Part shown: positions 1-22,128 of the stretch, piece by piece | Layout: the number at the start of each line of letters is the position of its first letter | How positions within the stretch are numbered: position 1 is the first letter of the stretch | Virus record (IMG/VR): IMGVR_UViG_3300006749_000112 | Span: 1 to 25,313 of that record | DNA from: a virus | Length of the DNA stretch: 25,313 nucleotides | Reading direction: 5' to 3' (one strand) | Translations under genes and position numbers: made by a program | The notes under the pieces: generated by a model | Told to the model about the DNA's origin: nothing | Database searches by the model: none | The model's input: the letters and a program-made list of their open reading frames with translations, nothing else

Positions 1-11
1 ATGTTGTCCAT
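1..11 (-). CDS. start of a further left-arm gene, cut by window edge
   Basis: An ATG reads leftward from position 11 and only Met-Asp-Asn is visible before the window ends. The start is supported by context: the leader 11-mer shared by all left-arm transcription/processing units lies at 22-32, and a structured element (38-93) precedes it, exactly as for the genes starting at 748, 2189 and 3086. No product can be named. Confidence 0.45.
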
Positions 12-37
12 TGGTGTTGGATTGAAGTTTGAGATTT

Positions 38-93
38 AGAGTGTTCGTGTGTTACACTCTTCACTACGTTCAGAGTTGTAACACACTCACTCT
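38..93 (-). ncRNA. structured leader element H1 (hairpin family, unknown class)
   Basis: This is a long imperfect hairpin in the minus-strand transcript. Pairings are 38-43 with 88-93 (6 bp), an asymmetric internal loop (44-46 opposite 87, RNA GAA opposite A), 47-55 with 78-86 (9 bp), a one-base bulge at 77, 56-60 with 72-76 (5 bp), and an 11-base apical loop (61-71). It starts a few bases after the stop codon of the gene ending at 97 and is followed by the shared leader 11-mer. No U-run follows the stem, so it does not look like a Rho-independent terminator. The same architecture with different sequence recurs at 770-830, 2213-2268 and 3126-3178. Function is unknown. Confidence 0.7.
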
Positions 94-96
94 CTA

Positions 97-246
97 TTAG
101 GGGTTGAGGTCGAACTGAGTGTTCTTGAATGCCTCTTCGAGGCGCTTCTTGTTACCTGCATCCGCAGCATACCATGTATCAATGAGGCGGTATTCAAAGC
201 TACCGCAGTTCTGCTGTCGCAGTTCAAGCGTTTCGTGTTGTGTCAT
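97..246 (-). CDS. small hypothetical protein, 49 aa
   Basis: The reading frame is open further upstream, but I choose the ATG at 246 because it overlaps the TGA of the preceding gene as ATGA (246-243), the arrangement seen at two other junctions in this arm. That gives a 49-residue, fairly polar protein beginning MTQHETLELR with a central aromatic patch (FEYRLIDTWYAA). I do not recognise it. It is the third gene of a translationally coupled trio (748 to 97), so it is probably made together with its two upstream partners. The hairpin element H1 follows its stop. Confidence 0.6.
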   Translation of the reverse strand: MTQHETLELRQQNCGSFEYRLIDTWYAADAGNKKRLEEAFKNTQFDLNP

Positions 247-437
247 TTGTCTGTTGTTTCTACTCCCCACCACGCAATCTCTTCGTCGTGGATGCGGAAC
301 TCGTGGCATTCTTGCAGTTCGTTTTCCCATACCCCGACCCACACGCCGTGGTCGTCAGGTGCGCCCTGTATATGGGCGGCTTGGAATCCTTTTTTTTGCA
401 GTGCCTTGACTGCTGATTCGCATTGTTCTTGTGTCAT
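243..437 (-). CDS. small acidic hypothetical protein, 64 aa
   Basis: The start overlaps the stop of the gene at 434-748 as ATGA (437-434), and its own stop overlaps the start of the next gene the same way, so translation is probably coupled on both sides. The 64-residue product begins MTQEQCESAVKALQKKGF, a likely amphipathic helix, and continues into a Trp-rich acidic half (VWVGVWENEL, EEIAWWGVE). The N-terminal MTQ start is shared with the downstream 49-aa protein but the rest differs. Not recognised; probably an early or accessory phage protein. Confidence 0.7.
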   Translation of the reverse strand: MTQEQCESAVKALQKKGFQAAHIQGAPDDHGVWVGVWENELQECHEFRIHDEEIAWWGVETTDK

Positions 438-748
438 AGGTCAATGATTACGCCCTTGGATTCAAGAGCATCGGTGATAAATTCAGGGAGTTCGAAGCAT
501 CCATCGTACCCCGTGAGGCGTACATCTCCGTTGTCATCCCAATACACTTCGAGGATTCCGCCTGCATAGAAGCGGTCACCTCCCGTGTCAAGGTCGTAGG
601 TTTCGTACCACCCACCTGTTCCGTGGTTGGGGTCAATCTCTACGGTGGTGTCCATCTCTACGCCCGTGGCTCGGTCTATGTCAATGTCGTATGCCGTGGT
701 CATAGCTACGTGTGGTAGCGTGGTCTTGAAGTCTAGTTTGAATTTCAT
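434..748 (-). CDS. hypothetical protein, 104 aa
   Basis: The frame is open to about 826, but the upstream part only translates the leader. The ATG at 748 lies directly after the leader 11-mer (753-763), as in the other left-arm genes, so I take it as the start. The 104-residue product begins MKFKLDFKTT and is acidic and Asp/Gly/Tyr-rich (GTGGWYETYDLDTGG, LEVYWDDNGDVRL), suggesting a small beta-rich fold; the C-terminus is LPEFITDALESKG. There are no recognisable catalytic motifs. It is preceded by structured element H2 and overlaps the next gene by ATGA. Confidence 0.75.
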   Translation of the reverse strand: MKFKLDFKTTLPHVAMTTAYDIDIDRATGVEMDTTVEIDPNHGTGGWYETYDLDTGGDRFYAGGILEVYWDDNGDVRLTGYDGCFELPEFITDALESKGVIIDL

Positions 749-769
749 GGGGTTGAAGTTTGAGTGGTT

Positions 770-830
770 TAGTGTGTTCGTGTGTATCACTTCTACACTT
801 CGTTTAAGAAGGTGATACACACTCACACTA
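770..830 (-). ncRNA. structured leader element H2 (hairpin family, unknown class)
   Basis: Second member of the family. Pairings are 770-776 with 824-830 (7 bp), an internal loop 777-779 opposite 823 (RNA GAA opposite A, identical to H1), 780-790 with 812-822 (11 bp), a bulge at 811, 791-794 with 807-810 (4 bp), and a 12-base apical loop (795-806). It lies two bases after the TAA of the lipoprotein gene and just before the leader 11-mer of the gene starting at 748. Stem bases differ from H1 at many positions while pairing is kept, which argues for selection on structure. There is no U-tract. Confidence 0.72.
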
Positions 831-832
831 CA

Positions 833-985
833 TTAGTTGTAAGCGGCACATTCGGTGTTGCCAACAGGTTTGATGTACTGCGTATGTGCATCATATGTCG
901 TACAGCCTTGCAAAACGACTACGACCATCAGTGCCGCCATCCATGCGAGGAAGGCAAGGAACGCATAGTTAACTCGATTCTTCAT
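833..985 (-). CDS. small lipoprotein, 50 aa
   Basis: This 50-residue gene begins MKNRVNYAFL, followed by a hydrophobic stretch (residues 8-25, AFLAWMAALMVVVVL) and a lipobox LQGC at 25-28, so Cys28 is the expected lipidation site. The mature part is only about 23 residues and contains one more Cys. A tiny phage lipoprotein could be an outer-membrane spanin or a superinfection-exclusion factor, but no i-spanin partner is evident next to it, so neither role is claimed. It starts 25 bases after the stop of the 1011-1163 gene, without a leader 11-mer, so it probably shares that transcript. Element H2 follows. Confidence 0.72.
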   Translation of the reverse strand: MKNRVNYAFLAFLAWMAALMVVVVLQGCTTYDAHTQYIKPVGNTECAAYN

Positions 986-1010
986 GTAATATGTATTATG
1001 TGTTTGTGTT

Positions 1011-1163
1011 TCAGTTAGTTACGTTCCACACCTCATCAAAGATGAAGCGGTTTTCTCTACGCATATATGATACGTAGTTGTCGTAGTGGTTTTTGTCTTT
1101 GAATGTTTTAACAACAACAAACTTTCTTCCGTTAGGGATGATGAATTGTATTTTCTTTGTCAT
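1011..1163 (-). CDS. small basic hypothetical protein, 50 aa
   Basis: The ATG at 1163 overlaps the TGA of the upstream gene as ATGA (1163-1160), giving a 50-residue basic protein that begins MTKKIQFIIPNGRKFVVVKT. A beta-strand-like N-terminus is followed by an aromatic/basic segment (KNHYDNYVSYMRRENRF) and ends DEVWNVTN. Coding is supported by the start/stop overlap, the absence of a leader element at this junction, and the tight packing with neighbours. Not recognised. Confidence 0.65.
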   Translation of the reverse strand: MTKKIQFIIPNGRKFVVVKTFKDKNHYDNYVSYMRRENRFIFDEVWNVTN

Positions 1164-1762
1164 GTCCATAGTTCTCTGATGACCAACCATACCACAGCTT
1201 GCAAATGTGCAGGGGCATACCCCATGTCATATGAGATGCGTTGGAACTTGCGTTCCAATAGGTCGTATTGCTTCGGTGTAATCTGGTTGTCCAAGTTCTT
1301 CCGAGTCTTCGACTTGGTCTGAAAGCTGTACACCATCCATGTATCAATCGTGACAGCATTCATATCAAATGCACCCACATTCAAAGCGAATCGGTGAGTC
1401 TTTCGGCTTGCTTCGTGGACTTGAATCAGTCCCTTTGCAATGTTGAATGCCTTGACCTTGTTGGAATTGAAGGTGCTGACCTTCACACGATCGTGTGATA
1501 CGTCATCATGTACAGCTTGAAAGACGTTCCAAGCATCAATCTTGTTTCGTTCCCATCTGTTTCTCGGAGAGAGAGCCGAGATGACTCCCCCTGCACGGAG
1601 TGGTGATATGTCGAATTCATTGGACAGCATCAGAGCAAAGCCCTTGGCTTCGTCGTACCATGCCACACCATCTTGTATGACATCATCCGTTGCCATGTCA
1701 TGCCAATGTGATACGTTGCTACGCATCTTTGACATCATCTTGTCAAATGTTTTTGGATTCAT
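1160..1762 (-). CDS. conserved phage protein, 200 aa (DUF7178-like)
   Basis: The start is placed at 1762, after the leader 11-mer (1773-1783) and 25 bases downstream of the predicted cleavage site of hammerhead 1. The 200-aa product carries GVISALSPRNRWERNKIDAW around residues 58-77, VTIDTWMVYSF near 138-148, and a C-terminal YAPAHLQAVVWLVIRE. From memory this pattern (ISALSP...W..N, a basic KVKAFNIAKG segment, VTIDTW, QAVVW) resembles a phage family annotated DUF7178, sometimes likened to helix-hairpin-helix DNA glycosylase folds. The family link is moderate and no activity is claimed. It overlaps the next gene by ATGA. Confidence 0.8.
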   Translation of the reverse strand: MNPKTFDKMMSKMRSNVSHWHDMATDDVIQDGVAWYDEAKGFALMLSNEFDISPLRAGGVISALSPRNRWERNKIDAWNVFQAVHDDVSHDRVKVSTFNSNKVKAFNIAKGLIQVHEASRKTHRFALNVGAFDMNAVTIDTWMVYSFQTKSKTRKNLDNQITPKQYDLLERKFQRISYDMGYAPAHLQAVVWLVIRELWT

Positions 1763-1781
1763 CGTAGATGATTTGAAGTTT

Positions 1782-1833
1782 GATACAGACACCCCGAAGG
1801 GTGTTTCGTCCACTCAGGACTCGTCAGTGTACC
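1782..1833 (-). ncRNA. hammerhead ribozyme 1 (type I)
   Basis: All core elements of a type I hammerhead are present in the minus-strand RNA. Stem I is 1833-1828 with 1787-1782 (6 bp, one G-U). The core CUGACGA is 1827-1821. Stem II is 1820-1817 with 1811-1808 (GUCC/GGAC, loop UGAGU), then GAA at 1807-1805. Stem III is 1804-1799 with 1794-1789 (ACACCC/GGGUGU, loop UUCG). The cleavage triplet GUC ends at C 1788, so cleavage is expected between 1788 and 1787, leaving a 25-base leader with the shared 11-mer before the AUG at 1762. The UGA stop of the upstream gene (1826-1824) is part of the catalytic CUGA. Confidence 0.92.
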
Positions 1834-2189
1834 TCGATTGAGCTTGCGTTGTTGAAGTCGTAGATGGCTTTTTCGTTTCTTGCCTTAGCAAGTTCCATTG
1901 CCACATAGTGTGACCTGACTACGTCAGAAAGTTCGAGATAGAAGAACCCTTGGTCATCGACCCATCCACCTATCACTTGGAACGGGTCACCATGTGATGA
2001 CGCTTGGATTTTTTTGAACTCTTGTTCAAATGCAATGAATGACAGCGATTCATTGGCACATTTGAACAGCTTGCAGTCAGCGGCTCCGCCGACAGCGTAG
2101 CCAAGTCCGTTATATGTCATTCCGTCTGTCTTGACGCTGAACCCCTCACCGCTTTGGATGAGGTGATACAATGATTGTGTTGAGGCCAT
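1824..2189 (-). CDS. hypothetical protein, 121 aa
   Basis: It starts at the ATG at 2189, just after the leader 11-mer (2194-2204), and stops inside hammerhead 1. The 121-residue product begins MASTQSLYHLIQSGEGFSVK and shows mixed alpha/beta character: a Gly/Ala-rich turn (YNGLGYAVGGAADCK), a segment FIAFEQEFKKIQ, a strand-rich FQVIGGWVDDQGFFYLEL, and a helical C-terminus. Not recognised. The coding sequence holds several short hairpins (1879-1892, 1915-1927, 2013-2030, 2033-2055), fewer per length than the promoter-proximal genes. Structured element H3 precedes it. Confidence 0.75.
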   Translation of the reverse strand: MASTQSLYHLIQSGEGFSVKTDGMTYNGLGYAVGGAADCKLFKCANESLSFIAFEQEFKKIQASSHGDPFQVIGGWVDDQGFFYLELSDVVRSHYVAMELAKARNEKAIYDFNNASSIEVH

Positions 2190-2212
2190 GGTGTTGAAGT
2201 TTGAAGGTTTAT

Positions 2213-2268
2213 GGGTGGTTCGTATATCACTCTATTCGTAAGAACTCATAGAGTGTATATACTCACCC
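2213..2268 (-). ncRNA. structured leader element H3 (hairpin family, unknown class)
   Basis: Third member: 2213-2217 with 2264-2268 (5 bp), an internal loop 2218-2221 opposite 2263, 2222-2227 with 2257-2262 (6 bp), a bulge at 2256, 2228-2235 with 2248-2255 (8 bp), and a 12-base apical loop TCGTAAGAACTC on the plus strand (2236-2247), almost identical to the H4 loop. The outer stem overlaps the TGA of the upstream 34-aa gene (2265-2263). The leader 11-mer and the start at 2189 follow. There is no U-tract. Confidence 0.7.
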
Positions 2269-2367
2269 CCCAATGTTGTCGTTTTGGTTGTGGTTGGCAT
2301 CGACCCATATCATGATGAGTATGATACCTGCGATTGGCATGAGCATGCCGTAGAGAATAATGTCCAT
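2263..2367 (-). CDS. small membrane peptide, 34 aa
   Basis: The ATG at 2367 follows the leader 11-mer (2380-2390) and sits 27 bases after the predicted cut site of hammerhead 2. The 34-residue product begins MDIILYGMLMPIAGIILIMI, one likely transmembrane helix (about residues 2-22), and ends with a short polar tail (DANHNQNDNIGG). Single-pass mini-proteins of this kind occur in phage early and lysis regions, but nothing here identifies a specific role. The frame is open upstream through the ribozyme, but that translation would read the ribozyme and leader and is not preferred. Confidence 0.6.
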   Translation of the reverse strand: MDIILYGMLMPIAGIILIMIWVDANHNQNDNIGG

Positions 2368-2388
2368 CGTAGATGAAGTTTGAAGTTT

Positions 2389-2444
2389 GACACAGACACC
2401 CCCCGAAGGGGGTGTTTCGGCTATTGAAGCCTCGTCAGTGTGCC
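2389..2444 (-). ncRNA. hammerhead ribozyme 2 (type I)
   Basis: A second complete hammerhead in minus-strand RNA. Stem I is 2444-2439 with 2394-2389 (GGCACA/UGUGUC, 6 bp with one G-U). The core CUGACGA is 2438-2432. Stem II is 2431-2428 with 2422-2419 (GGCU/AGCC, loop UCAAU), then GAA 2418-2416. Stem III is 2415-2408 with 2403-2396 (8 bp, loop UUCG), and the GUC triplet ends at C 2395. Stems I, II and III differ from ribozyme 1 by compensating changes, and stem III is two pairs longer. It begins 12 bases after the stop of the 209-aa gene. Cleavage between 2395 and 2394 would leave a 27-base leader before the AUG at 2367. Confidence 0.93.
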
Positions 2445-2456
2445 TGTCATATGATA

Positions 2457-3086
2457 TCACATCATGTCACGGAGTTCACGGAGTGACAAGTCAGAGAATG
2501 AAACCTCATTGGATGTTCCATCCAAGGGGAACTCTGCATCAAGCTTCGCTTGGAAAGCTTTGAGGACTTCAGCCTTACGAGCTAAAGCTCGTTGACGGAT
2601 TCTCTCATCACTGCCGTTGGCTTCGCCAAGCTGTTGAACTGACTGCCGAGCAGCTTCTACCGAAGCTGTCTTAGCCTTGGAACAAGGCTTGACTGGGCTG
2701 TCAGCCTTTCCATGAAAGGCTTTCTCTTGTCTGTCAGCAACTCGTTGCTGTGGAGTAGCTTTCTTGATGGTCGTCTTACGACGACGCTTCGGCTTGGCCT
2801 TAGCCTTCGGCTTGGTCTTGGTCACCTTCGGTGCATCGGGCATCATACCCTGTGACATGAGGAACTGCTTGAACAACTCCATCATCTCATCAGTCCCTTG
2901 GGACTGCTTGTCAGATGTCTTTGACTTGGTTGCCTTCGGCAACTCGATGGCTTCAACGAACTCAGAGAGTTCTTTGATGGCTTGTCTTGCTTGACCCTTT
3001 CTCACCGTTGACGGTGAGAAGTAGAACTCATTGACTGAAACTGAAACTGCTTTCAGCAGTTCGACTCTGTTGGTTGACTTTTTCAT
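2457..3086 (-). CDS. Lys/Arg-rich hypothetical protein, 209 aa
   Basis: It starts at the ATG at 3086, after the leader 11-mer (3106-3116); longer frames only translate the leader. The N-terminal 50 or so residues are predicted helical and contain PSTVRK, similar in spacing and content to PSMVRK in the neighbouring 178-aa protein, suggesting a shared N-terminal domain. Next come a Met-rich stretch (MMELFKQFLMSQGMM), a highly basic linker (about residues 105-130, KAKAKPKRRRK), and a helical C-terminal half ending DLSLRELRDMM. The basic linker suggests nucleic-acid contact, which is inference. The coding sequence is itself dense in perfect short hairpins. Confidence 0.75.
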   Translation of the reverse strand: MKKSTNRVELLKAVSVSVNEFYFSPSTVRKGQARQAIKELSEFVEAIELPKATKSKTSDKQSQGTDEMMELFKQFLMSQGMMPDAPKVTKTKPKAKAKPKRRRKTTIKKATPQQRVADRQEKAFHGKADSPVKPCSKAKTASVEAARQSVQQLGEANGSDERIRQRALARKAEVLKAFQAKLDAEFPLDGTSNEVSFSDLSLRELRDMM

Positions 3087-3097
3087 TGGAAATGAAA
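2509..3097 (-). repeat. array of perfect short hairpins within a coding sequence
   Basis: At least 15 perfect inverted repeats with stems of 5-9 bp and loops of 3-4 bases lie in 589 bases of one gene: 2509-2525, 2540-2552, 2577-2592, 2617-2629, 2651-2668, 2673-2689, 2703-2721, 2735-2750, 2770-2785, 2891-2906, 2929-2943, 2958-2972, 2999-3020, 3045-3061 and 3081-3097. The last encloses the start codon. Sequences differ from hairpin to hairpin, so this is not one repeated unit. The commonest loop is TTC on the plus strand (GAA in RNA). Confidence 0.85.
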
Positions 3098-3125
3098 TTT
3101 GAAAATTGAAGTTTGAATGGTTTGG

Positions 3126-3178
3126 GAGGGTCCTCTCTGACACTCTTCGTAAGACTCAGAGTGTCTGAGAGTCCCCTC
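3126..3178 (-). ncRNA. structured leader element H4 (hairpin family, unknown class)
   Basis: Fourth member: 3126-3130 with 3174-3178 (5 bp), a 2x2 internal loop (3131-3132 opposite 3172-3173; RNA GA opposite GA), 3133-3137 with 3167-3171 (5 bp), a mismatch (3138/3166), 3139-3146 with 3158-3165 (8 bp), and an 11-base apical loop TCGTAAGACTC on the plus strand. It lies between the genes ending at 3202 and starting at 3086, followed by the leader 11-mer. It differs from H1-H3 in having a symmetric internal loop. There is no U-tract. Confidence 0.68.
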
Positions 3179-3201
3179 AGTTGGTCGGCAATCTCTCTGC
3201 T

Positions 3202-3738
3202 TTAGCAGAGTTCGAATCGTCGGAGTTTCTCTTCCAAGGGAAGAGCATTGGCTTTCTCATATTCCTCTTCGAGGAATGTGCATTGGAATTTCATTCCAAA
3301 GGGCTCAAGCAAAGCTTGAATCTTACTGATGTAAACATCAGTATTGGAGGCTTCATCACAATCTACGAAGTAGATAGTGCCATCTTCGTCGGTTTCGAAA
3401 TCTGCAAGATTTTCGAAGTCAAGTAGAAGTTCAAGCCATTCATCGACTTCGTCGAATACTGCCTTCGGCAGTTCAATCTTGTCCTTCGGACAAGTCAAAG
3501 ACATCGTTTCACCTTCGGTGAACATGAAGTCCCATTCAGTCATAAGATGACTGATGTTCAGTACCTCTGGAAGAGGTTCTGATGGATAGTCCCAAGATTC
3601 CATTGGAACCTCTTCGAGGTTCTCAATGACCTTCAGAGCTTCTTTCAGAAGCTTGATGGCATGGTTCTTACGAACCATGGATGGATGGTTGATGGCTTGG
3701 TTTGCAGCTTTAGCTGCAGCTGTTGCTGAGTACTTCAT
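3202..3738 (-). CDS. acidic hypothetical protein, 178 aa
   Basis: I place the start at 3738, ten bases after the upstream TAA, where the bases before the ATG resemble those before the ATG at 3940; an in-frame ATG at 3768 inside the upstream gene is the alternative (188 aa). The N-terminus is Ala-rich and helical (YSATAAAKAANQAINHPSMV) and shares PS-x-VRK with the 209-aa protein. The rest is acidic, with strand-like DGTIYFVDCDE near residue 125, IQALLEPFG (a motif repeated in the 63-aa upstream protein) and a Glu-rich helical C-terminus. Not recognised. Its sequence is saturated with short hairpins, and element H4 follows. Confidence 0.75.
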   Translation of the reverse strand: MKYSATAAAKAANQAINHPSMVRKNHAIKLLKEALKVIENLEEVPMESWDYPSEPLPEVLNISHLMTEWDFMFTEGETMSLTCPKDKIELPKAVFDEVDEWLELLLDFENLADFETDEDGTIYFVDCDEASNTDVYISKIQALLEPFGMKFQCTFLEEEYEKANALPLEEKLRRFELC

Positions 3739-3748
3739 CTTCGATGAA

Positions 3749-3940
3749 TTAGTGGTTTTCGATTTCATCTACGATGACAGCTTGCTCTTCGGTACTGAGT
3801 TCACAGAACTCAAGACAGAGCCAAAGGCTCTCTATGTCAGCAGTCCAAAACAGCTCAAGCAAAGCTTGAATACGGGCTTCAGTCAGTGTAACTGACTGCT
3901 TGTAAGACTCTTTCAGAGTCTGAGTGTTGATTGATTTCAT
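3749..3940 (-). CDS. small acidic hypothetical protein, 63 aa
   Basis: This is the first gene behind the leftward promoter. Its ATG at 3940 lies after the leader 11-mer (3951-3961), and a short hairpin (3965-3976) stands near the expected 5' end. The 63-residue product is predicted helical, begins MKSINTQTLKESYKQSVTLT, contains RIQALLELFW (shared IQALLE with the next protein, encoded by the same 15-base hairpin) and ends in an acidic helix EEQAVIVDEIENH. Not recognised. Six perfect hairpins lie in its 192 bases. Confidence 0.72.
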   Translation of the reverse strand: MKSINTQTLKESYKQSVTLTEARIQALLELFWTADIESLWLCLEFCELSTEEQAVIVDEIENH

Positions 3941-3980
3941 CGGAGATGAATTGAAGTTTGAGTTGGCAAGATTGCCGCTG

Positions 3981-4012
3981 CAAAGGTATGGTCAACTTTC
4001 GGCAAAATCCAA
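3981..4012 (-). promoter_or_regulatory. Bacteroidota-type promoter for the left arm
   Basis: On the minus strand, TACCTTTG (3988-3981) matches the -7 consensus TAnnTTTG, with TTG (4012-4010) 21 bases upstream as the -33 element. The transcript would start near 3975 with a hairpin (3965-3976) and then the leader 11-mer. I saw no equally good leftward box between later genes in this arm, so it may drive the whole cluster. Confidence 0.75.
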
Positions 4013-15228: not shown

Positions 15229-16550
15229 TGTCTGTAAGCGTTACTACAACAGCTGGTAATTCAGTTTCTGTATCTGTAAACGGAGGGACTTCTGTTTCTT
15301 TTACATCGACATCAACCTCTGTATCTGTATCTGAAAAAGAAGCGAGTCAGATTATAGTTACTAACAAGGGTCCAAAAGGAGATACTGGTGCTACGGGTGC
15401 TACAGGAGCTACGGGCGCAACAGGAGCCACAGGACCGCAAGGTCCAACAGGTTCTACGGGGCCTCAAGGCTCCACGGGTCCTCAGGGCGCTACAGGGCCT
15501 CAAGGTCCAGCTGGATCTGATGGTACCTCACCCAATGCCTTTACCACACTGGCTGTATCTGGTCAGGACAATGTGGTTGCTGATGGAGTGGATGACACCC
15601 TCACTCTTGCCGCTGGGTCTAACGTAACTATTACAACAAACGCATCAAGCGACACAGTTACGATAGCTTCTGCTGATACAAACACTCAGCTAAGCACCGA
15701 GCAGGTTCAGGATATTGTAGGCGGTATGTTTTCTGGCAACACGGAGACACGAATCTCTGCCACGTATCAAGATGATGACGGAACGATTGACCTTGAAGTT
15801 GATGCCATACCCGTAGACCTTACATCTGATGGTGCTGGCACAATACATGCAAACAATGTTCCCACCCTTAACCAAAGCACTACTGGCAATGCTGCAACAG
15901 CTACAGCACTTGCAACAGCAAGAGCAATCAACGGAGTAGACTTTGACGGCACGGCACCTATTACAATTACTGCTGCTGGGAATACGCTTTCTAATACTGT
16001 CCCCGTATCTAAAGGTGGCACAGGGGCAACTAGTTTATCGGCTAACTCTTTGCTTACGGGAGATGGCACAAACGCCATATCTGCTGAAAGCAACTTGACC
16101 TTTGACGGTAATAATCTTGTTGTTACTGGAGTTGAAGTATTTTCTTTCCCAGATACTGCGGACCAATATCACGGAGAGGCTGTTACCTTTGGAAGCGGTC
16201 CCAGTGGGATTGATGGTAACATTGAGCAGGGTAAGCTGTATTACTTGGACTCTAGTCAGCAGTGGGAAGAGACAGACGCTAATGCAGCTTCAACGTCTAG
16301 CGGAATGATAGGAATAGCTGTAGCTGATGATACTACTAGATTCCTTGTCCGTGGATTTGCTAGGCACACTAGCTTTTCTGGGTTAACAACGGGTCAGATT
16401 GTTTATGTGAGCACTACGACTGGAGAGATAACAAATACTGCCCCTTCAGGAAATGGCGACATTGTTAGGGTGATTGGGTATTGTGTAAATGCTACTACTA
16501 GAGTGATATACTTTGATCCAGACAAAACCTTTGTAGAGGTCACTGCATAA
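15228..16550 (+). CDS. tail fibre with collagen-like repeat, 440 aa
   Basis: A Ser/Val/Thr-rich N-terminus (residues 1-45) is followed by about 17 Gly-X-Y triplets (residues 48-99; [23 protein letters not shown]), which would form a collagen triple helix. Next come beta-helical fibre segments including [20 protein letters not shown], a repeat widely seen in phage tail fibres. The C-terminal domain (about residues 310-440, [14 protein letters not shown] ... [11 protein letters not shown] ... RVIYFDPDK) is beta-rich and may be the receptor-binding or trimer-capping part. Homotrimer expected. Confidence 0.85.
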
Positions 16551-17644: not shown

Positions 17645-18051
17645 TGGCAACGGTAAGAGTCACATTGGGGCTCTCAAGTGCTGATGTCATGTCAACTGCA
17701 GTCAGCCTTAATGTGGCTGCTAATTTGTTGGCTGACTCTGGCAGTATTGTACGCGCCAAAGTAAAGGGTACGGCTGCTGATACAGACGACCTTGTTATTT
17801 ACAAGGCTAACGACAAGCTTGAAAGCGCCTATCTCTACATCCAGAATCTGGACCCAGAGAAAGAGAATTACATCACGGTGAGAAACGAAACCGAATCCAA
17901 TACAGCGCTTGTTGCTAAGATTGGCGGTGGCGAGTTTGCATTTATTCCTGTTGCAGTAGACAAGACATATCAATGCATTGCCACCAAGGTCAACACCATG
18001 ATTGAATACGGAGTGTTCGGTTTGGACAACTCAGCAGTCACACTTGCATAA
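17644..18051 (+). CDS. small beta-rich virion protein, 135 aa (paralogue)
   Basis: ATG overlaps the previous TAA. Begins MATVRVTLGLSSADVMSTAV, parallel to the preceding protein, with AYLYIQNLDPEKENYITVRN and IGGGEFAFIPVAVDKTYQC as the counterparts of its two conserved segments. Tandem duplication followed by divergence is the simplest reading. Probable structural protein. Confidence 0.7.
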   Translation: MATVRVTLGLSSADVMSTAVSLNVAANLLADSGSIVRAKVKGTAADTDDLVIYKANDKLESAYLYIQNLDPEKENYITVRNETESNTALVAKIGGGEFAFIPVAVDKTYQCIATKVNTMIEYGVFGLDNSAVTLA

Positions 18052-21627: not shown

Positions 21628-22128
21628 ATGGGACACTTTGATAAGCTGCAAGCGAAAAACGTTGTAGCTAACAACATTAAGGGGGCATACCAGGGTGCTG
21701 TCGTTTTGAACGGCGGAACTGATGTAACGCTCACTGCCAATCAATCTGGTGCTGTATGCGTCTTTGATGCAGCTGGCGCTTCTTCATTTACTCTTCCAAC
21801 TCCTCAAAAGGGCCTTCACTTCACGTTTATTACGGCTGTGACTGCTACTGCAGATCACGTCGTTAAAACGGCAACGGATGCTGCTGGTTTCTTGGGTGGT
21901 GGTATTGTTGTAAATACTACTGCTGATCAGCTGGATGATGTTTCTGCAGCTACTGATGGAGAGAATGACCACATCACCATGAATGGAACTACTACTGGTG
22001 GACACGTTGGTTCTACTATCAATGTTTGGGGCATTTCTGACTCAAATGCCGCTAAGTGCTGGGTTGCACAAGTGGCACTGGTTGGATCAGGAAACACCGT
22101 TACACCATTTGGTGACGATCAGCTCTAA
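21628..22128 (+). CDS. beta-rich virion protein, 166 aa
   Basis: Begins MGHFDKLQAKNVVANNIKGA, followed by strand-rich VVLNGGTDVTLTANQSGAVC, TLPTPQKGLHFTFITAVTAT and a C-terminal SDSNAAKCWVAQVALVGSGN. The phrase pattern (strand with T-L-T-x-x-x-S-G-x-x, then F-T-L-P-x-P...G-x-x-F-x-F) is common in phage-encoded single-domain virion or fibre decoration proteins. Sits between two terminators, so it may be transcribed alone or by read-through. Confidence 0.7.
   Translation: MGHFDKLQAKNVVANNIKGAYQGAVVLNGGTDVTLTANQSGAVCVFDAAGASSFTLPTPQKGLHFTFITAVTATADHVVKTATDAAGFLGGGIVVNTTADQLDDVSAATDGENDHITMNGTTTGGHVGSTINVWGISDSNAAKCWVAQVALVGSGNTVTPFGDDQL

Follow-up and report, generated by a model that had tools for sequence, protein, structure and literature searches.

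The window analysed here is the whole 25,313-nucleotide stretch of a viral record (IMG/VR IMGVR_UViG_3300006749_000112), a contig of a marine phage, which carries minus-strand genes at positions 1-3960 and structural genes that begin at about 4666 on the plus strand. Its large terminase is closest to that of an uncultured podovirus (47% identity) and shares 35-39% identity with those of Flavobacterium, Maribacter and Cellulophaga phages. A promoter of the flavobacterial type, TTG-N21-TACCTTTG, lies upstream of the whole minus-strand cluster (3981-4012, minus strand), and counterparts of this box are present at the equivalent place in phages L004, L006 and L047. Together, the terminase relatives and the promoter type make a flavobacterial host likely. 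No promoter-like box was found at those internal boundaries of the cluster that bear the RNA elements described below; one extra match, at 227, falls within a coding region. The single promoter-like box ahead of the cluster thus predicts one long transcript, and transcription of the cluster is probably polycistronic.

An exact 11-mer leader, TCAAACTTCAA, recurs on the minus strand of the cluster. That of the first gene (3951-3961) lies behind the promoter without any processing element, and the others each follow a structured RNA. Two of these RNAs are type I hammerheads. The first (1783-1832, minus strand; leader at 1773-1783) precedes a DUF7178 gene and consists of a CUGACGAG..CGAAAC core and a stem III with a UUCG loop; its Rfam score of 21.2 bits is below the gathering score and the core was read directly. 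The second (2390-2445, minus strand; leader at 2380-2390) precedes an open reading frame for a small membrane protein and matches the RAGATH-1-hammerhead model at 28.2 bits, also below gathering. Both have the full consensus core. Within coding sequence, the genes at 2457-3940 (minus strand) are dense in short hairpins with perfect stems of at least 6 bp and loops of 3-5, three window genes having 17, 24 and 8 of them versus 0.8, 1.8 and 0.7 in synonymous-codon shuffles. The L004 homologues (1617-2042 and 2357-2986) have 17 versus 1.8 and 7 versus 0.8 in shuffles, and the count in the terminase gene is near expectation.

An earlier reading of the DNA from its letters alone (the sequence-only reading) had placed four further hairpins, H1-H4, at gene boundaries of this cluster, in the same slot as the hammerheads. 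All four were found there, between small early genes and on the minus strand, with a stop codon on one side and the exact leader on the other. H1 (38-93; leader at 22-32) is composed of a 6-bp stem, an A/GAA internal loop, 10 bp, an A bulge, 4 bp and an 11-nt loop. H2 (770-830; leader at 753-763) has 7 bp, A/GAA, 11 bp, a C bulge, 4 bp and a 12-nt loop. H3 (2213-2268; leader at 2194-2204), which overlaps the upstream stop codon UGA, has 5 bp, A/GAAC (or UGA/GAA), 6 bp, an A bulge, 8 bp and a 12-nt loop, and H4 (3126-3178; leader at 3106-3116) has 5 bp, GA/GA, 5 bp, an A.A mismatch, 8 bp and an 11-nt loop. The helices comprise approximately 20-23 bp and are interrupted by the internal loop. The folding energies of H1, H2, H3 and H4 are -26.5, -27.0, -23.5 and -33.6 kcal/mol, with z-scores of -5.3, -6.1, -6.1 and -5.0 against dinucleotide shuffles; for each hairpin none of 500 shuffles was as stable, and 200 more shuffles were also run. 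In all four, the sense strand folds slightly more stably than the antisense strand.

The plan that the sequence-only reading saw in these elements stands as regards the stems, the purine internal loop and the bulge or mismatch. The proposed apical loop of 11-12 bases is instead a structured cap. In H1 (GA-AC-GUA-GU-GA), H3 (GA-GU-UCUU-AC-GA) and H4 (GA-GU-CUU-AC-GA) it consists of tandem G.A pairs, then two base pairs, and a loop of 3-4 nt. The H2 version, UAAACGAAGUGU, is degenerate; the related copies in L030, L042 and L043 carry the standard cap GAACGAAGUGA. The general forms, atop the helix, are GA-[AC-RNA-GU]-GA and GA-[GU-YCUU-AC]-GA. The basal loop can likewise be read as tandem GA, UGA/GAA in H1-H3 and GA/GA in H4, and from their sequence the tandem GA positions are expected to form sheared G.A pairs. 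A kink-turn was rejected as an explanation for the tandem GA by reasoning, the extra bases being 3' of the GA. When run on the window, a family model scored H1-H4, all of which belonged to its training set, at 42-66 bits on the minus strand; plus-strand scores did not exceed 24 bits.

That stem sequences differ between copies while pairing is kept is borne out by double-sided changes in homologues. A scan for the neighbouring DUF7178 protein, which is independent of the hairpins, brought in phages at 70-73% protein identity, and these carry counterparts of H4 and of H1/H2 in which many pairs differ on both sides, for example CUCUC/GAGAG versus GUUAC/GUAAC. In MAFFT alignments, pairs changed on both sides with pairing kept number 8 of 25 in the H1/H2 set (11 sequences), 8 of 20 in the H4 set (4 distinct sequences) and 4 of 21 in the H3 set (3 sequences), the cap and nearby pairs being biased in the H1/H2 and H3 sets because some of their members, L004-L006 excepted, were fetched by hairpin pattern. 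The observed covariation score was reached by 0 of 500 shuffles for H1/H2, 0 of 500 for H4 and 12 of 500 for H3, and in slid control structures the paired cells drop to approximately 23-62%. The H1/H2 set also retains G-U pairs, and the basal UGA/GAA loop is invariant in 11/11 H1/H2-type copies.

As the sequence-only reading held, H1-H4 lie outside known ribozyme patterns. No Rfam ribozyme matches them at the gathering score or up to an E-value of 5, including the covariance models for twister, pistol, hatchet, hairpin and twister-sister; no Rfam family of any kind reaches gathering on H1-H4, and the lone weak match under permissive settings is a chance hit of a miRNA model to H2. Unlike the hammerheads (types I, II and RAGATH-1), which occupy the same kind of gene-boundary slot before the same leader in this phage and related ones, H1-H4 have neither the CUGANGA...GAAA core nor the three-way junction. 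The wider family described below also has no matching Rfam family at the gathering score. BLAST with the short hairpins against isolate phages returned chance matches, those in Pectobacterium adjoining a tRNA and being unrelated. Our literature search covered open-licence papers and found no described equivalent of the capped hairpins in them, and an earlier description may exist elsewhere; as far as that literature shows, what is new here is that the cap is conserved, that the family is widespread and that its members swap with ribozymes.

The four window copies are real, and they are members of what is actually a widespread family with a specific cap. A scan of viral contigs for exact CTNTGAACNNAGTGAANAG found at least 119 stretches, several with 2-6 copies. 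Among the matches listed, 80 of 98 distinct contexts have a Watson-Crick pair at the unconstrained N.N position, and in 46 of the 98 the helix continues for at least 3 pairs beyond the pattern's four (approximately 1.5 expected); in all 46 of these well-paired contexts the first base of the triloop is a purine. Capped hairpins of at least 12 pairs are held by 52 IMG/VR loci, in which cap conservation is overstated since loci were partly fetched by cap. Orientation is biased to the sense strand. A stop codon before and a start codon after the element were found for 51/77 sense versus 12/77 antisense placements of cap type 1 and for 9/10 versus 0/10 of cap type 2; the same test on hammerheads gave 15/24 versus 2/24. 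Capped hairpins occur too in phages with Shine-Dalgarno leaders, for example L149, and in such phages an A bulge or a U.U mismatch takes the place of the internal loop, or there is none (17-bp perfect stems). A CUUCAUUUAUGA-type cap, like GA-GU-YCUU-AC-GA, occupies the same slot though its sequence is quite different. In six cultured relatives, covariance model R1 for the cap hairpin gave chance level, and a scan of a genome collection for a strict form of the cap hairpin identified one Verrucomicrobiia MAG.

Several of these phages also encode tRNA-like RNAs. Sequences with a T-arm that ARAGORN does not call (L004:6490-6560, L030:9600-9690, L172:160-260 on the minus strand and L101:12330-12400) directly precede a capped hairpin, another hairpin or the possible pseudoknot element described below. 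Very short tmRNA-like RNAs of approximately 83-106 nt, comprising the ends of the tRNA-like domain without the usual middle, match the Rfam tmRNA model at 61-72 bits (L149:4151-4233; L142:12123-12205, minus strand; L156:761-866; L132:1380-1461, minus strand); ARAGORN made no tmRNA-like call in L142 or L149. Another small motif with which phages make RNA ends is the theta (HDV-like) ribozyme, found at the 3' ends of their tRNAs (PMC10879173), and some capped hairpins likewise follow tRNA-like RNAs; theta ribozymes differ in being double pseudoknots that act on tRNAs rather than mRNA boundaries.

The slot shared by H1-H4 and the hammerheads in the window is confirmed by swaps before orthologous genes in related phages. 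With downstream proteins grouped by blastp, genes of the YAVGGA family (in the window, gene 1824-2189, after H3) have a hammerhead in front of them in 14 phages and a capped hairpin in 3. The DUF7178 gene has a hammerhead in 2 cases, the window copy among them, and a capped hairpin in 2, and a third downstream-gene family has 1 hammerhead and 3 hairpins. L030 and L070 (81% protein identity) differ in the element, a hairpin in one and a hammerhead in the other, while their leader, untranslated region and coding start are identical letter for letter (TCAAACTTCAATTCATCTACGATGACAAAACTTCAAGAACTATACTTCACCA); L042 and L091 (77% protein identity) show the same kind of swap, again with leader and start kept. 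The elements thus behave as interchangeable modules. Other ribozyme classes also lie among capped hairpins: L149 has a hammerhead II (45.8 bits) and its relative L142 a pistol ribozyme (RF02679; 57.4 bits), both above gathering. The pistol fold differs from that of the H elements it adjoins, which its model does not match.

Other elements were seen in front of the leader. A conserved intergenic GACAATCAAGTCTAAGATTATGAGGGGCGACCTCA, possibly an H-type pseudoknot plus a hairpin and with no credible Rfam match, precedes the same leader in L002/L015 (9594, minus strand), L004 (3031 and 6567) and L006 (4187 and 7267); in L004 it stands where the window has its 2390-2445 hammerhead. At L047:7565, L004:2050 and L006:3193 the pre-leader slot is occupied by a terminator-like hairpin, CAGACCCCC-loop-GGGGGTCTG, with a T-rich stretch behind it. 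Among cultured phages, Flavobacterium phage elemo (NC_055853) has hammerhead-like cores between small genes at 16072-16096 and 17870-17894 (minus strand), one of them overlaid by the spurious plus-strand CDS gp66 and followed by a TCAAACTT leader, and Cellulophaga phage phi18:3 (NC_021794) has such a core between small genes at 21929-21952 (minus strand).

What hammerhead and related ribozymes do in phages and bacteria is largely unsettled. Their exchange with capped hairpins before orthologous genes whose leader and coding start stay unchanged argues for a function common to the two, the cutting of messages at gene boundaries, and because hairpins are swapped for self-cutting RNAs before the same gene they probably mark points at which the message is cut. 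We therefore favour, at a probability of roughly 0.55, the reading that H1-H4 are sites of intercistronic mRNA processing, with host RNase III as the probable nuclease, and would do the work of the hammerheads. Three functions had been offered by the sequence-only reading, a self-cleaving motif, an RNase III-type site and a 5'-end protector, and the second fits best, since the elements are sense-only, sit at gene boundaries, exchange with ribozymes and have a long helix with an asymmetric loop as in T7 R1.1; a 5'-end protector alone leaves the hammerhead exchange unexplained. T7 R1.1 is a 60-nt RNA between T7 genes 1.0 and 1.1 with an asymmetric internal loop, and is cut by RNase III (PMC6121014). 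Like the T7 sites R0.3-R1.3, H1-H4 are intercistronic hairpins of about 60 nt with a long irregular helix (approximately two turns) and an asymmetric internal loop (PMC6121014), and they lie in the sense strand of what is predicted to be a polycistronic early transcript; in the wider family the long irregular helix with internal loop is not always present. The H elements differ from T7 R sites in that they conserve both a tandem-GA cap and a basal loop of UGA/GAA or GA/GA, in swapping with ribozymes and in a host group without Shine-Dalgarno sequences. They resemble R sites in working principle, and may or may not belong with them.

Under the processing-site reading, the single promoter would give rise to a long polycistronic early transcript, each element-bearing internal boundary of which would carry either a self-cutting hammerhead or a capped helix, about 20 bp long, as the substrate of a double-strand-specific nuclease. 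The likeliest nuclease would be the host's RNase III, because a search of nine phage contigs for an RNase III-like gene yielded none, and the cut would probably fall at the GAA that makes up the 3' strand of the asymmetric basal loop. The upstream message would then end in a stable 3' hairpin, and the downstream one would begin with a short 5' stretch free of structure that bears the CAAACUUCAA leader, suited to non-Shine-Dalgarno translation. Read from its sequence, the hammerhead at 1783-1832 would on cutting put the stem III hairpin on the upstream 3' end and give the downstream message a 25-nt unstructured leader. If H1-H3 were cut in their GAA strand, or H4 in its GA strand, the upstream RNA would similarly end in a 3' hairpin, and 28-44 nt would precede the downstream gene. 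Flavobacterium starts translation without Shine-Dalgarno sequences, and local mRNA structure tunes it (PMC6847099), so a leader released from structure could be of consequence, and the products may be better translated or longer-lived. Several points tell against this reading: a host enzyme would be needed, the cap is more conserved than generic RNase III recognition would require, which suggests a partner that reads it, the internal loop varies or is absent in phages not of the flavobacterial type, and in six cultured relatives the cap hairpin stayed at chance level. In a search for a T7-type RNA polymerase, the control gave no match.

A rather less likely explanation is that the hairpins are uncut stabilisers of 3' or 5' ends, another endonuclease cutting the A-rich spacer while the hairpin blocks exonucleases or separates ribosomal regions. 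Their high stability and position right behind the stop codon accord with this, and a hammerhead stem III would likewise leave a hairpin on the 3' end of the upstream message. The precise swap with a self-cutting RNA nevertheless points to a cut within the element, and a plain exonuclease block needs neither a specific cap nor an asymmetric internal loop. We think it improbable that a phage or host protein binds the cap (GA-AC-RNA-GU-GA) to regulate translation or decay of the downstream gene, with cutting optional. The cap is kept though the helix sequence varies, its first loop base is a purine in all the well-paired contexts listed, and it is found again in phages with different translation signals; very different caps (GA-GU-YCUU-AC-GA and CUUCAUUUAUGA) share the slot, however, and the partial fetching of loci by cap inflates its conservation.

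Intrinsic terminators or attenuators, or an inverted repeat acting at the DNA level, have only a slight probability. The stems are strong and GC-capped, and at L047:7565 a true terminator-like hairpin with a U-run fills one slot. Against this, the absence of a U-tract downstream of H1-H4, reported earlier and upheld here, leaves them without the GC-rich hairpin plus U-tract of an intrinsic terminator; the element-bearing internal boundaries lack a promoter-like box, cap and orientation are strand-specific, and G-U pairs are kept. A new self-cleaving class is quite unlikely: the slot common to hammerheads, the hammerhead II and pistol ribozymes in related clusters and the unchanged basal loop of the 11 H1/H2-type copies speak for it, but the internal loop is variable or missing in the wider family and so cannot be a catalytic core, no conserved unpaired core is present, and the tandem G.A pairs and RNA triloops are structural.

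This analysis defines a recurrent structured RNA family that is missing from Rfam, and whether its hairpins and the hammerheads do the same job can be tested with one cultured phage. Beyond the processing-site reading of H1-H4, we raise tentatively, as a possibility that is itself not likely, that hammerheads, pistol and a cap-recognised hairpin with a dedicated nuclease form one exchangeable set of gene-boundary scissors across unrelated phage groups. If so, the set would be a previously undescribed processing system, and the job of small ribozymes in phages would be to make monocistronic messages.
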